This document shows, in pieces, positions 19,565 to 30,037 of a stretch of 32,029 nt of DNA (its first letter is position 1; each line of letters opens with the position of its first letter). The stretch comes from Actinomycetota bacterium (GTDB lineage Bacteria > Actinomycetota > Thermoleophilia > RBG-16-64-13): assembly GCA_012514635.1 (NCBI GenBank), contig JAAYZX010000114.1, positions 1-32,029 of the forward strand, read 5' to 3'. A program made the translations under genes and the position numbers. The notes under the pieces were generated by a model, which was given only the letters and a program-made list of their open reading frames with translations, searched no databases and had not been told where the DNA came from.

Positions 19565-20101
19565 CTACACGAACAGCCGCCGGTACCTCGTGTGGCAGTA
19601 GGCGGCTAGGTCCGCTGCGAAGGCGTTGATTATCTCGTCTGCATAGAACATGCCTAGTGTATTCATACAGCTCTGTAGGCTCTTGAAGCTCCCCACCAGA
19701 TTGAAGATCACGTGTGAGTTTGGGCTCCGGTAGGGGGACAGTTCCCGGCGTCGCCAATCCACAAGTCGAGACATGCCTCCGGAGAAAGCTTGGTAACTTT
19801 TAGTTGTTAGCCCGGTGAACGACGGTTGCAGGACGTTGTTAAACCCGAGTTGCTCCAGGATTGAGGCCAGCAGATCGGAGCAGGTGGCGTCCAGGTACGT
19901 GTCGGTGGCGACGAGGTAGTGAGTATCGAACGCACGGCGTTCGGGCGAGAAGAGACGCCGCTCGTAGAGTGACAACAAACCGTTTAGCTCGACACTCATC
20001 TTCATGAGCAAATTCAAGTTGACCACCGCGGCGGCGCTGGTAACCTGATTTGTTAGGGCAGAGACTTTATTTCGGACCGGCGCATATAGCTCACAGGAAG
20101 G
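19565..20101 (-). pseudogene. CARF-domain protein remnant (CRISPR ancillary, TIGR02619-like)
   Basis: The reading frame shows core elements of the CARF family linked to type III CRISPR signalling. Numbering from the GTG at 20026: 'KMSVELNGLLSL' (about 9-20), the 'TDT' signature in 'YLVATDTYLDATCSDLL' (37-53), 'FTGLTTKSYQAFSGGMSRLV' (70-89) and 'IFNLVGSFKSLQSCMNTLG' (107-125, standing for the family's N-x-TGGFK). The first beta strand with its G-T-S-L loop is absent, TGG is VGS, and the C-terminus turns into unrelated 'AAYCHTRYRRLFV'. The frame is open to 20101, then meets a stop. No effector domain follows. It looks like a broken gene; a short stand-alone CARF cannot be excluded. Confidence 0.65.
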
Positions 20102-20755: not shown

Positions 20756-21613
20756 TTGAATCTTGACCGACACAATACGGCCATCGTTGTCGATTCAACC
20801 GCGGACCTGCCGCTCGATCTTGCGGAAGACTCCAACGTGACCATGATTCCGCTCACCGTGTATTTCGGCGAGGAGGCGTTTCTCGATTGGGTGCAGCTCA
20901 AGCCTTCGGATTTCTTCCAGAGGCTGGCTGCGGCTCCGCAGCTGCCCAAGACGTCGCAGCCTCCGGTGGGCGAATTCGTACAAGTTTTCAGAACACTGCG
21001 TGAGCGATACGCTCGGGTGTATTCCATTCATCTGAGCAGTAAGTTAAGCGGCACATATGAGAGTGCGCGGATCGCCGCACTCGAGGTGGACGGCGTGAGG
21101 GTGATTGATTCCAAATATGCAACCGGCGGGCTGGCCCTCCTCATCGACCGATTGGTAGAGCGGCTGGATCGCGGAACCCCGGAGAAGGAGTTCGACGCCT
21201 ATATCGCCCGCTACCTCAGGGAGGCCACCTTCATTTTCATTCCCGACACTCTCGATTACCTGCACAAAGGCGGGCGCATTGGAAGGGCATCGCACCTGAT
21301 CGGTACTATGCTGAGCATCAAGCCGGTGCTCATCATTGAGGACGGCATGGTGGCCGTACACAAGAAGGCGCGCGGTGCACGGCACGCGCTGACCATCATG
21401 CGCGAATGTCTGTTGGAGCGAACACTTCCTTGGCGTGATACGTATGTGGGTCTTACGCACTCGTTCAACGAGTCGCTGCTGGAACAGGTCAGGAATATGG
21501 TGTTAGATGCGCCGGACAGAATCGTACACCTGCGTGGAACTAGTATCGTGGGGTCTGTGATTGGGACATACGCAGGGCCGGGCGCGGTAGGGATAGGTTT
21601 CATTCAGGAGTAG
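20756..21613 (+). CDS. DegV-family fatty-acid-binding protein (FakB-like), first copy
   Basis: The 285-residue cytoplasmic protein binds a fatty acid and, in the FakAB system, presents it to the kinase FakA. The family pattern is clear: 'IVVDSTADLPLDLAEDSNV', 'PLTVYFGEE', 'LPKTSQPPVGEFV', 'YSIHLSSKLSGTYESA', 'DTLDYLHKGGRIGRAS' and 'IKPVLIIEDGMV'. One key position is altered: the final 'GTHxGPG' histidine, which helps hold the fatty acid carboxylate, is Y in 'IGTYAGPGAVGIGF'. A TTG start at 20756 follows a GGGGG site, partly folded into a hairpin. Its stop overlaps the next gene's GTG by one base, so translation is coupled. Confidence 0.92.
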   Translation: MNLDRHNTAIVVDSTADLPLDLAEDSNVTMIPLTVYFGEEAFLDWVQLKPSDFFQRLAAAPQLPKTSQPPVGEFVQVFRTLRERYARVYSIHLSSKLSGTYESARIAALEVDGVRVIDSKYATGGLALLIDRLVERLDRGTPEKEFDAYIARYLREATFIFIPDTLDYLHKGGRIGRASHLIGTMLSIKPVLIIEDGMVAVHKKARGARHALTIMRECLLERTLPWRDTYVGLTHSFNESLLEQVRNMVLDAPDRIVHLRGTSIVGSVIGTYAGPGAVGIGFIQE

Positions 21614-22509
21614 TGGACGAAAAGGCGGGGGGCGCGGGTGTGCCGGGAACGGTAGTCATTACTGATTCGGCCTCCAACATACCGCAACGGTTACGCGACG
21701 GACTACCTCTGAGCGTGGTTCCCATCACCCTCATATTGGACGGCGTTGACTATGGTGATGACGTGGATATGTCGGCGGCCGAGTTCTATGCACGCCAGGC
21801 GGCCGACCCCGATGCACAATACTCCACGTCCTGCCTTTCTGCCGGCCAAGCTCTGGCCGCTTATCGAGCGGTGGCGGAGTCGGCCGACGGTATAGTCTCG
21901 GTACACACAGGCAGTGGACTTAGCGGGTCTTTCGCCGCCGCCTGCCAGGCGGCGGATCTGATGGCCTCCGAGGGATCCATCCCAATAGAGTTGGTCGATA
22001 CCGGCACGGTAAGCATGGCCTGTGGGTTCTGCGTATTGGCCGCCGCTCGTGCAGCACGGAGTGGTGCGTCTGTGGTGGAGGCTGCGGAAGCAGCGCGCAG
22101 GACGGTTGATCGGGTCAAAATGTTTGTAGTGGTCAAAACTCTACGGGGTGTAGCTCAGAGTGGCAGAGTGCCCTCAGTTGTGGGTTACTTTCTAGCCCGC
22201 ATCCCCATCTCTCCCGTGCTGCAGATCGGGAATGGCGGCGTGAAATTGGTGCGACCCGAACGGACATATAGCCGCTCCATTGCGCACCTGATTAAGACTT
22301 TGTCGCGCGAGATCGGCGAGGACCCCGTGGATTTGGCGGTGATGCATGCGGCTGCGCCGGAGGAAGCAGTGGAGCTGGGCCGGTTGCTCAGCTCCCGACA
22401 CCAATGTCGACAGGTAACCATCACGGAGTTTACTCCTGCCATGGGAGCCCACACCGGCCAGGGTCTACTAGGCGCGGCGTTCTGTCCCGCGGAGTTGAGG
22501 ACGCTGTGA
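21613..22509 (+). CDS. DegV-family fatty-acid-binding protein (FakB-like), second copy
   Basis: This is a paralogue of the upstream gene (298 residues) with low similarity to it. Motifs: 'VVITDSASNIPQRLRDGLPL', 'VPITLILDGVDYGDDVDM', 'STSCLSAGQALAAY', 'VSVHTGSGLSGSFAAACQAA' and 'GVAQSGRVP'. Unlike the first copy it keeps the carboxylate-binding histidine in 'GAHTGQGLLGAAF'. The two may carry different acyl chains, as FakB1 and FakB2 do. GTG at 21613 overlaps the upstream stop with AGGAG close by; the stop overlaps the plsY start as GTGA. Confidence 0.9.
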   Translation: MDEKAGGAGVPGTVVITDSASNIPQRLRDGLPLSVVPITLILDGVDYGDDVDMSAAEFYARQAADPDAQYSTSCLSAGQALAAYRAVAESADGIVSVHTGSGLSGSFAAACQAADLMASEGSIPIELVDTGTVSMACGFCVLAAARAARSGASVVEAAEAARRTVDRVKMFVVVKTLRGVAQSGRVPSVVGYFLARIPISPVLQIGNGGVKLVRPERTYSRSIAHLIKTLSREIGEDPVDLAVMHAAAPEEAVELGRLLSSRHQCRQVTITEFTPAMGAHTGQGLLGAAFCPAELRTL

Positions 22510-23180
22510 ATTGGGCCGTTCTCTGGGTGGCACCGGTGGCTTATCTGGTGGGCTCGTTCCCCACGGCCTACGTTGTGGCTCGGCAGAGAACCGGTGTCGA
22601 TATCCGCACGGTGGGGAGCGGAAACGTGGGCGGATCGAACATGCGGGCTTTGCAGGGGACTTGGGCCACAGTATTTGTGGGCGTGATTGATATCTTTAAA
22701 GGGTTGCTCCCCGTGTGGCTGACCGTCAGGCTGGGTCTGGGGGCGCATGCAATGTATGTGGCGGCCGTGGCGGTGGTTGTGGGTCATGACTGGTCGGTCT
22801 GGCTTGGACTCCAGGGCGGCCGGGGTGGCGCGTCGTCGCTGGGGACGCTTCTCGTCCTCTATCCGTACGGTTTTCTTTGGATTGTAGGGTTCCTGACTAT
22901 AGGAAAGATAACCCAAACGGTAGCGATACTTCATTTATGCGGCGCCGCCGCCCTGCCCCTGGTGGCGTGGTTGCTGGGGCAGTCTGGAGGGCTGTTGGCG
23001 ACGCTGATCGTTTTGGCGCTCCTCATGGTGGTGAAGCGTCTGGAGGCAAATCAGTGCTTCCGGGTGCCGGCGGATAGAGAGGGGGGCGCCCCGCATGGGC
23101 TTCACGTGGGGACGACGAAGAAGGTGTATCTGAACCGGCTGTTTCTTGACCGCGATTACCGGGAGATATCGAACTCCTGA
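22506..23180 (+). CDS. plsY: Acyl-phosphate:glycerol-3-phosphate acyltransferase PlsY
   Basis: This integral membrane enzyme transfers an acyl group from acyl phosphate to sn-glycerol-3-phosphate, the first step of phospholipid synthesis. The 224-residue length and helices fit. Motifs: 'GSFPTAYVVAR', 'VGSGNVGGSNMRALQG' (phosphate loop, usually GNPGATN/GNIGATN), 'DIFKGLLPVWL' and 'GHDWSVWLGLQGGRGGASSLG' (usually GGKG; R replaces K). The C-terminal 'VKRLEANQCFRVPAD' part extends beyond the core. GTG 22506 overlaps the upstream stop as GTGA and has GAGG upstream. Its position after two FakB-like genes links it to acyl phosphate made from bound fatty acids. Confidence 0.92.
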   Translation: MNWAVLWVAPVAYLVGSFPTAYVVARQRTGVDIRTVGSGNVGGSNMRALQGTWATVFVGVIDIFKGLLPVWLTVRLGLGAHAMYVAAVAVVVGHDWSVWLGLQGGRGGASSLGTLLVLYPYGFLWIVGFLTIGKITQTVAILHLCGAAALPLVAWLLGQSGGLLATLIVLALLMVVKRLEANQCFRVPADREGGAPHGLHVGTTKKVYLNRLFLDRDYREISNS

Positions 23181-28571: not shown

Positions 28572-29963
28572 TTAGTCGGCAACCAGAGTGCCGCAAGCCG
28601 GCTCCATGCGGATGGTGAAGTGTCGCAGTACCGACGGCTCCTGCACGATACGCACACCACGGATACGTTCCTTGAGTGTGTTCACGTAGAGCAATACTTC
28701 GGCCAGATAATCTACGTGACTCTGGGTGTACATGCGGCGCGGGAATGCCAAGCGCACCAACTCCATGGCAGAAGGCTTCTCGCTGCCATCCGGTTGCTTT
28801 CCAAACATAACGGAGCCTATTTCCACCGAACGGATACCACCTTCTACGTAAAGCACCAGTCCAAGAGCCCATGCTGGATACTCGCTCTGAGGAATGTGGG
28901 GCAGCATGTTTTTGGCGTCAATATAGATGGCGTGACCACCGGGTGGTCGTACGATGGGGATGTCATTGTTGGTGAGGATGTCGCCAAGGTAGGCTACGGA
29001 GCGTGTGCGGTAGCGGAGGTAGTCCTCATCTAAAGCTTCGTGTAGGCCTACGGCTACGGCCTCCAGATCGTAGCCCGCCAGACCGCCGTAGGTGGGGAAA
29101 CCTTCAGTCAGGATGAGATTATTACGGCAGCGAACGGCAAGGTCGTGGTCGTTCATGGCCAGGAAGCCGCCGATATTTGCCATGCCGTCCTTCTTGGCGC
29201 TCATAGTGGCGCCATCGGTGTAGCTGAACATCTCTCGAGCTATCTCGAGCGGGGTCTTGTCGGCATAACCCTCTTCGCGTGTTTTGATGAACCAGGCGTT
29301 TTCCGCAAAACGACAGCAATCCAGGAAGAGCGGCACACCGCGGTCATGGCATATCTTGGATGCCGCCCGGATGTTGGCCATACTGACCGGTTGACCGCCG
29401 CCGGAGTTATTGGTCACCGTGATCATGGCCAGAGGTACCCGTCCTTGGTTTTCGTCGAGTACGCGGACGAGCGCGTCCAGGTCGATGTTGCCCTTGAAGG
29501 GTGCCTCCAGGTCGGGCTGGTGTGCTTCCGCGCAGGGTATATCCAGAGCGACGGCTGCCTGGTGCTCAGTATTGGCACGGGTGGTATCGAAGTGTGTGTT
29601 GTTGGGGACGATGTCTCCCGACTTCAGTACGGTGCCGAAAAGGATGCGCTCCGCCGCTCTTCCCTGGTGAGTGGGGATGATGTACTCAAAGCCGGTGATA
29701 TCTTGAACGGCCTTCTTGAAACGATAGAAGGAAGTGGCTCCTGCATACGACTCGTCACCCCGCATCATGGCCGACCATTGCGCCGAGGAGAGTGCACCGG
29801 TTCCCGAGTCGGTCAACAGGTCGATCAGAACGTCATCGGCCTTCAGGAGGAAGAGATTGTGGTGGGCATCGCGGAGGGCGGCCTCGCGGTCCCGGCGGGT
29901 AGTTTGACGGATGGGCTCAATCGTCTTGATCCGGAACGGTTCGATGATGGTCTTGAATTCCAT
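28572..29963 (-). CDS. tnaA: Tryptophanase (L-tryptophan indole-lyase)
   Basis: This PLP enzyme splits L-tryptophan into indole, pyruvate and ammonia. The 463-residue product has the beta-eliminating lyase layout: 'MRGDESYAGATSFYRFKKAV', 'PTHQGRAAERILFG', 'NNTHFDTTRAN', 'LDCCRFAENAWFIK' and the PLP lysine in 'TMSAKKDGMANIGG' (probably K258). The C-terminal 'EPSVLRHFTIR' carries H448 at the position typical of tryptophanase; tyrosine phenol-lyase has F there. ATG 29963 is chosen for GGGGAG upstream. No tnaC leader peptide or neighbouring tnaB permease was seen; the gap to the cyclophilin gene is only 74 bases. It gives the cell indole plus pyruvate for fermentation. Confidence 0.93.
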   Translation of the reverse strand: MEFKTIIEPFRIKTIEPIRQTTRRDREAALRDAHHNLFLLKADDVLIDLLTDSGTGALSSAQWSAMMRGDESYAGATSFYRFKKAVQDITGFEYIIPTHQGRAAERILFGTVLKSGDIVPNNTHFDTTRANTEHQAAVALDIPCAEAHQPDLEAPFKGNIDLDALVRVLDENQGRVPLAMITVTNNSGGGQPVSMANIRAASKICHDRGVPLFLDCCRFAENAWFIKTREEGYADKTPLEIAREMFSYTDGATMSAKKDGMANIGGFLAMNDHDLAVRCRNNLILTEGFPTYGGLAGYDLEAVAVGLHEALDEDYLRYRTRSVAYLGDILTNNDIPIVRPPGGHAIYIDAKNMLPHIPQSEYPAWALGLVLYVEGGIRSVEIGSVMFGKQPDGSEKPSAMELVRLAFPRRMYTQSHVDYLAEVLLYVNTLKERIRGVRIVQEPSVLRHFTIRMEPACGTLVAD

Positions 29964-30037
29964 GCGCTCCCCCTGTGATCCGGGATGGACGTCGTGGTTG
30001 TACCGCAACGGGGTTGGGATCTAACCACACATTTGAT

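Follow-up and report, generated by a model that had tools for sequence, protein, structure and literature searches.

In the fatty acid kinase (FAK) system, as outlined in one review (PMC10146087), FakB extracts fatty acid from the membrane for phosphorylation by FakA, and the resulting acyl phosphate is consumed by PlsY or PlsX. FakA and FakB of Bacillus subtilis have been described as forming a working coupled reaction with PlsY in vitro (PMC13400652), and it has been supposed that single FakBs may differ in their interaction with PlsY or PlsX (PMC12288450). The substrate site of PlsY has been set out for the Aquifex aeolicus enzyme, in which Ser35, Arg45, Lys104 and Asn180 clamp the phosphate of glycerol-3-phosphate (G3P), Ser142 and His177 contact its 2-hydroxyl group, and His92 and loop 3 serve the acyl phosphate; alanine mutants of the clamp are reported to lose more than 92% of activity (PMC5700162). 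PlsY has been treated as a single-function enzyme and the name G3P acyltransferase is given to its homologues by default, the record from Thermomicrobium roseum being one example. Here, we compare with these systems an operon in which FakB-like proteins are encoded beside a divergent PlsY, referred to below as R-type, and it is this PlsY revealed by the operon, more than the operon itself, that is of main interest.

The window, by which we mean the whole stretch of 32,029 nucleotides analysed, corresponds to contig C106 in a genome of 2.34 Mb with a completeness of 98%. The preliminary description had read two degV genes and plsY as one operon with overlaps of 1 and 4 bases, and the open reading frames, starts and overlaps are confirmed (Table 1). 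The GTG start of degV2 takes its first G from the final base of the degV1 TAG stop, and plausible Shine-Dalgarno runs can be read by eye 5' of degV1, degV2 and plsY (AGGGGG, AGGAG and GAGG, respectively). Because a leftward gene (19565-20026, minus strand) lies upstream, at a distance of about 730 bp, and a convergent FAD oxidoreductase gene lies downstream of plsY, the operon is taken to consist of these three genes alone. The isolated upstream gene encodes a short protein matching the CRISPR-associated Cas_APE2256 (58.8 bits). Neither Rfam matches nor tRNAs were found within the window, and a promoter/terminator scan of it gave no signal above that of shuffled sequences. Elsewhere in the window, positions 28572-30008 (minus strand) encode a protein of the tryptophanase/tyrosine phenol-lyase family (672.9 bits to NF009709).

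Table 1. Genes and overlaps of the operon, with positions in the window.
Feature	Position	Strand	Description
degV1	20756-21613	+	TTG start; ordinary-branch FakB-like protein, Pfam DegV 236 bits
degV2	21613-22509	+	GTG start; FakB-like, of the branch accompanying R-type PlsY, Pfam DegV 187.2 bits
plsY (R-type)	22506-23180	+	GTG start; Pfam G3P_acyltransf 117.8 bits, C-terminal RLxxDRD signature
degV1/degV2 stop/start overlap, 1 base (TAGTG)	21611-21615	+	Seen in the sequence
degV2/plsY overlap, 4 bases (GTGA)	22506-22509	+	Seen in the sequence; same overlap in genome G007

The kinase, which the preliminary description had found to be missing from the window, is encoded on contig C61, where it adjoins a third DegV gene and scores 522.6 bits against YloV/FakA (cut-off 396.1) and 131.7 bits against Dak2. 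Profile searches of the host genome returned three DegV proteins, one Dak2 protein, one PlsX, three PlsY-like proteins and one PF01553 acyltransferase in all. A canonical PlsY lies on contig C98 (TIGR00023, 167.3 bits), and the PF01553 acyltransferase about 2.4 kb from it is probably PlsC. Since FakA, PlsX, a canonical PlsY and this PlsC-like gene are all present elsewhere in the genome, the operon is an add-on and its plsY an extra copy.

The PlsY of the window is predicted to adopt the seven-helix (seven-transmembrane) PlsY fold, with an AlphaFold pLDDT of 91.2, and its model superposes on the Aquifex structure 5xj5 with a VIA-align Z of 25.4 and an rmsd of 2.0 over 184 residues. It had been taken for a normal PlsY, and this does not hold at the level of the substrate pocket, most of which is lost for G3P. 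Only Ser35 is kept among the six G3P-binding positions; the replacements, read from MAFFT columns in a gapless register, are R45A, K104R, S142H, H177R and N180A, and the phmmer register agrees with these columns as far as the phmmer alignment extends. An arginine stands one place before Aquifex position 45. At the acyl-phosphate site His92 is retained, Thr41 is replaced by serine and the loop reads GGRGGA. The R-type PlsY of G007 has the same residue states at the pocket positions. We considered matching RL to RL in motif 3, which would turn His177 into leucine and Asn180 into valine, and dropped this in favour of the gapless register; a five-sequence alignment prefers a 7-residue deletion spanning 177 and 180, and the histidine and asparagine are absent in either register.

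To place this protein, PlsY-like open reading frames were drawn from a named scan (75 loci), 60 relatives, 396 genomes of the window's phylum, a sample made up of the best matches among the matches listed, and 17 further genomes covered mostly through their loci. The resulting 281 loci gave 255 different frames, which divide into 137 canonical, 43 R-type and 68 other non-canonical PlsYs, along with five truncated frames and two that are not PlsY, both of which groups were dropped. Classes were assigned by alignment columns, with His177 and Asn180 marking a canonical protein and arginine at position 177 an R-type one by definition; the R-type assignment of row L279 is doubtful on account of a poorly fitting tail. 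Position 104 is arginine in 42 of the 43 R-type proteins as against 19 of the 137 canonical ones, and asparagine at position 180 is found in none of the 43. All 137 canonical proteins have Arg45, His92, His177 and Asn180, the last two of which define the class, and the acyl-phosphate His92 is retained in 30 of the 43 R-type proteins. An RLxxDR[DE]-like tail is present in 39/43 R-type proteins compared with 6/137 canonical ones. In a tree of 93 PlsY rows, 41 R-type rows and two of the other class fall on one side of a branch with an SH-aLRT support of 96, which is lost when the T. roseum PlsY is added; the R-type state requires two changes on the tree with the T. roseum protein and three without it.

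Several further observations were made amongst these proteins. The third PlsY of the host genome (L043:7509-8222, on contig C124) is R-type-like, with a GGRG loop and the tail RLWFDRE; it is flanked by an LPG_synthase_TM protein and glycosyltransferases and has a counterpart in G007 on C51 (L044), and its neighbours suggest that it may have a role in glycolipid synthesis. In another group of R-type PlsYs an MFS transporter gene follows 3' and often overlaps (L324:338-1753, L326:4045-5382, L327:6247-7662 and L328:6338-7744), and over the whole set an MFS gene lies within 400 bp of nine of the 43 R-type PlsYs, none of the 137 canonical and none of the 68 others. A lysophospholipid route for the MFS-linked proteins was considered and not adopted, the resemblance to the MFS part of Aas being weak (about 25-32 bits). 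Seven PF02660 matches, mostly non-canonical, were found in each of the genomes G061, G064 and G075 (two submitted under Dehalococcoidia and the third under Dehalococcoidales), two of those in G061 being short fragments. In a Dehalococcoidia MAG (L147/L083), a PlsY-like frame beside a DegV gene has one in-frame TAG, which could reflect a pseudogene, an assembly error or recoding.

The genomic linkage of PlsY with DegV is concentrated in the R-type class. Twelve of the 43 R-type PlsYs (at 11 loci) have a DegV gene within 300 bp, as against 4 of the 68 other non-canonical PlsYs and none of the 137 canonical ones. With the seven R-type rows that had served as profile seeds removed, three of which had DegV, the R-type count is 9/36. 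Where at least 900 bp was available on both sides, DegV stands beside 8/29 R-type compared with 0/118 canonical PlsYs (Fisher p = 9.6e-7), a value that overstates independence since the rows are related and the R-type proteins are essentially one branch. FakA is in the cluster at six of the 11 R-type DegV loci (G130, G169, G198, G325, G360 and G377). Gene orders vary, with degV-plsY overlapping in the window and G007, plsY-degV in G062 and G199, plsY-degV-plsY in G265, plsY-degV-fakA in G130, and fakA-degV tail to tail with plsY in G377, G325, G169, G360 and G198; two clusters around PlsYs of the other class read degV-plsY-degV (G061) and fakA-degV-plsY (G212). Altogether, the pairing is found in the phylum of the window in eight groups at family level, and outside it in a Chloroflexota MAG and in T. 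roseum, and a Dak2 protein was detected in 27 of 29 genomes checked, the two without being G343 and G063. The distribution is patchy at close range, with PlsY adjoining DegV in three of the 61 genomes of the close set by coordinate comparison (G000, G007 and G045), and the degV2-plsY pair in one of 17 other genomes of the window's family (G007). Of the 43 R-type PlsYs, 31 have no DegV within 300 bp, and nine have the MFS gene instead.

The proposal that carrier and acyltransferase are genetically coupled is thus borne out in part: the linkage recurs, with FakA in more than half of the R-type DegV loci, but the conserved unit is degV2-plsY only. The degV-degV-plsY arrangement, whose conservation in relatives the preliminary description had asked about, was rejected as the conserved unit, since in G007 degV1 lies 7 kb from degV2-plsY and degV1 belongs to a different, ordinary FakB branch; no degV1 counterpart was found beside plsY in any other surveyed genome. 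For the degV2-plsY pair itself, the same 4-base overlap in G007, a member of the same family, at 51% and 56% identity, argues that the arrangement does not reflect chance. Absence of FakA from the genome and confinement of the arrangement to this strain had been named beforehand as outcomes that would speak against the idea; FakA is present, and the degV2-plsY pair is not unique to the strain. In the portions of the open-access literature available to us, we recognised no described pairing of FakB/DegV and PlsY genes.

The two DegV proteins share 19% identity. Both pass the Pfam DegV cut-off of 27 bits, and neither reaches the 350-bit cut-off of the FakB1 equivalog NF038249, a model that covers a single FakB subtype (138.1 bits for degV1 and 98.8 for degV2). 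With 48% identity to the FakA-adjoining DegV on C61, and clustering in a 44-row DegV tree with relatives' DegVs that have no neighbouring PlsY, degV1 is, on sequence grounds, a member of the ordinary FakB branch and a paralogue of the C61 protein. In the same tree degV2 joins 11 other PlsY-linked DegVs in a 12-row set (support 98/96), and a larger PlsY-linked grouping of 15 has weaker support (90/86). Its identity to the DegVs linked to both R-type PlsY and FakA is 30-35% in G377, G325, G169, G360 and G198 and 26% in G130. The AlphaFold model of degV2 (pLDDT 91.0) matches FakB structures, with 4x9x as the top PDB match (Foldseek E 3.1e-27). In FakB1 the carboxylate is described as held by Ser171-His270-Thr62 together with Ser95, and the R173A mutant as inactive (PMC8892158). 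At the positions of T62, S95, S171, H270 and R173, degV2 has T, G, S, H and R and degV1 has T, S, G, Y and R; S. aureus 4x9x has G at 171, and the G007 equivalent of degV2 has alanine at the Ser95 position. The tyrosine at the His270 position is common to degV1, the FakA-linked DegV (L005:7593-8525) and the degV1 counterpart in G007.

A possible lead on the acceptor comes from T. roseum, whose genome paper, in the part available to us, reports a membrane with 1,2-diols in place of glycerolipids and the absence of plsB, leaves the details of diol synthesis unclarified and does not discuss PlsY (PMC2615216). It was the only directly relevant item in our literature search on PlsY-like or multiple PlsY proteins and diols. 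The organism lay outside the original sample and was reached through a protein search of plasmids, in which its megaplasmid alone gave a match over 80% or more of the query length. Here DAK2, 'glycerol-3-phosphate acyltransferase' and DegV genes are adjacent (TRD_RS11825-RS11815; L354:8281-11449), and the PlsY has GGRG, KRLEAN and LDRD and has lost the motif-1 GSGN. The nearest named relative of the window's genome is deposited as Gaiellales (Thermoleophilia), and diols have been reported in Thermoleophilum. Since an organism reported to bear diols and to lack plsB carries fakA, an R-type PlsY and degV together, long-chain 1,2-diols or their phosphates are the leading candidates for a non-glycerol acceptor of an R-type acyltransferase fed by fatty acid kinase, a speculative proposal that we regard as unlikely to hold in this specific form. 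The T. roseum cluster is a lead on the acceptor rather than proof of it.

Possible routes to phosphatidic acid were read from the other genes present. PlsX was found in 11 of 20 genomes checked, and the window's genome and G007 both have canonical PlsY and PlsX. Neither protein was found in the six genomes with fakA, degV and plsY together (G130, G169, G198, G325, G360 and G377), four of which (G169, G198, G325 and G377) have a PF01553 frame of 779-1084 aa, assigned as PlsB-sized by its length; no such frame was found in G360, which is 82% complete, and the longest PF01553 frame in G130 has 684 aa. From these gene contents, the R-type enzyme appears mostly to coexist with another route to G3P acylation in the genomes examined. 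In G062 (Chloroflexota) and G063 (Terrybacteria), where canonical PlsY and a PlsB-sized frame were not found, the R-type or other odd PlsY might itself be the G3P enzyme.

Taken together, we lean towards the view that degV2-plsY is an accessory lipid module in which acyl phosphate made by FAK is passed to the R-type acyltransferase, which probably acylates an acceptor other than ordinary G3P. Here, degV2 would act as a FakB-type carrier that picks up a fatty acid from the membrane, FakA from contig C61 would phosphorylate the bound fatty acid, and the neighbouring R-type PlsY would use the acyl phosphate and, with its acceptor pocket rebuilt, would probably acylate a different compound from G3P or one in addition to it. 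In most genomes examined another enzyme covers the housekeeping acylation of G3P, and degV1, as a second, ordinary FakB, has joined the operon in the window's genome. The enzymatic activity of the R-type PlsY, the handover and the acceptor are what we infer; the overlapping degV2-plsY genes fit a dedicated last-step pair, and a new acceptor is suggested because the pocket residues are replaced rather than decayed. The absence of a nearby DegV from 31 of the 43 R-type PlsYs tells against this reading. So does the rarity of the pair among the window's family relatives, which could instead point to chance neighbours or decaying duplicates; these we consider highly improbable, given that the pairing spans many groups, its gene order varies, the frames are intact and the models are confident.

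Following the model of the preliminary description, the R-type PlsY could also be an ordinary enzyme of G3P acylation that serves a route dedicated to exogenous fatty acids, its pocket rebuilt and still accepting G3P. Ser35 is kept, Arg44, Arg104, His142 and Arg177 could form a new phosphate clamp, FakA is in the genome, FakA/FakB and PlsY of B. subtilis are described as coupling in vitro (PMC13400652), and G062 and G063 lack the canonical enzyme. Five of six G3P-binding positions are changed, however, single changes of R45, N180 or H177 are reported nearly to abolish the activity of Aquifex PlsY (PMC5700162), and canonical PlsY is already present in the window's genome and G007, so that we regard this as possible and, on balance, unlikely. 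Retention of His92 in most R-type proteins alongside loss of the acceptor pocket would also suit a non-catalytic or hydrolytic relative, serving either as a membrane dock for the loading or unloading of acyl phosphate by FakB or as a phosphatase that adjusts the acyl-phosphate pool. A gene-linked carrier suits docking, and in T. roseum even the motif-1 GSGN is gone; the conservation of the new residues (K104R in 42/43 and an RLxxDR-type tail in 39/43) nevertheless suggests a new ligand site, which makes such a role quite unlikely in our estimation.

The FakB-linked R-type PlsY may thus represent an uncharacterised lipid-making module. If an accessory module is the correct reading, a widespread branch of PlsY has lost the G3P pocket and become linked to FAK genes, and acyl phosphate would supply a second acylation that has gone unrecognised; an acceptor that is a diol or lysolipid would open a way to study how non-glycerol or recycled membrane lipids are made.

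Compared with known systems, the R-type PlsY of the window resembles the Aquifex aeolicus enzyme (5xj5-5xj9) in its seven-helix fold, His92, Ser35 and GG[KR]G loop, and differs from it in the replacement of R45, K104, S142, H177 and N180, in an additional C-terminal RLxxDRD tail and in a TIGR00023 (PlsY) score of 102.3 bits, below the equivalog cut-off of 137.2 bits. The top NCBIfam match of the window, G007, L051 and L058 PlsYs is instead NF010993 (PRK14417, 'membrane protein'), a model with no assigned function; the likeness spans nearly the full length, C-terminus included, but at 117-182 bits against a cut-off of 249 bits these proteins are not members by the NCBI rule. The T. roseum cluster comprises the same three gene families, its PlsY being 36-38% and its DegV 34% identical, with KRLEAN and DRD common to its PlsY and that of the window; it differs in the order fakA(-) plsY(+) degV(+) and in the loss of PlsY motif 1. 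With the FakAB systems of S. aureus (FakA/FakB1/FakB2) and S. suis (FakA-FakB2, 7w7h) the locus shares the DegV fold, with 4x9x as best match, and a genomic FakA, whereas degV2 lacks a Ser95 equivalent; in the parts of the FakAB literature available to us FakB and PlsY are joined by metabolism, and a special PlsY linked to FakB by its gene is not described there.
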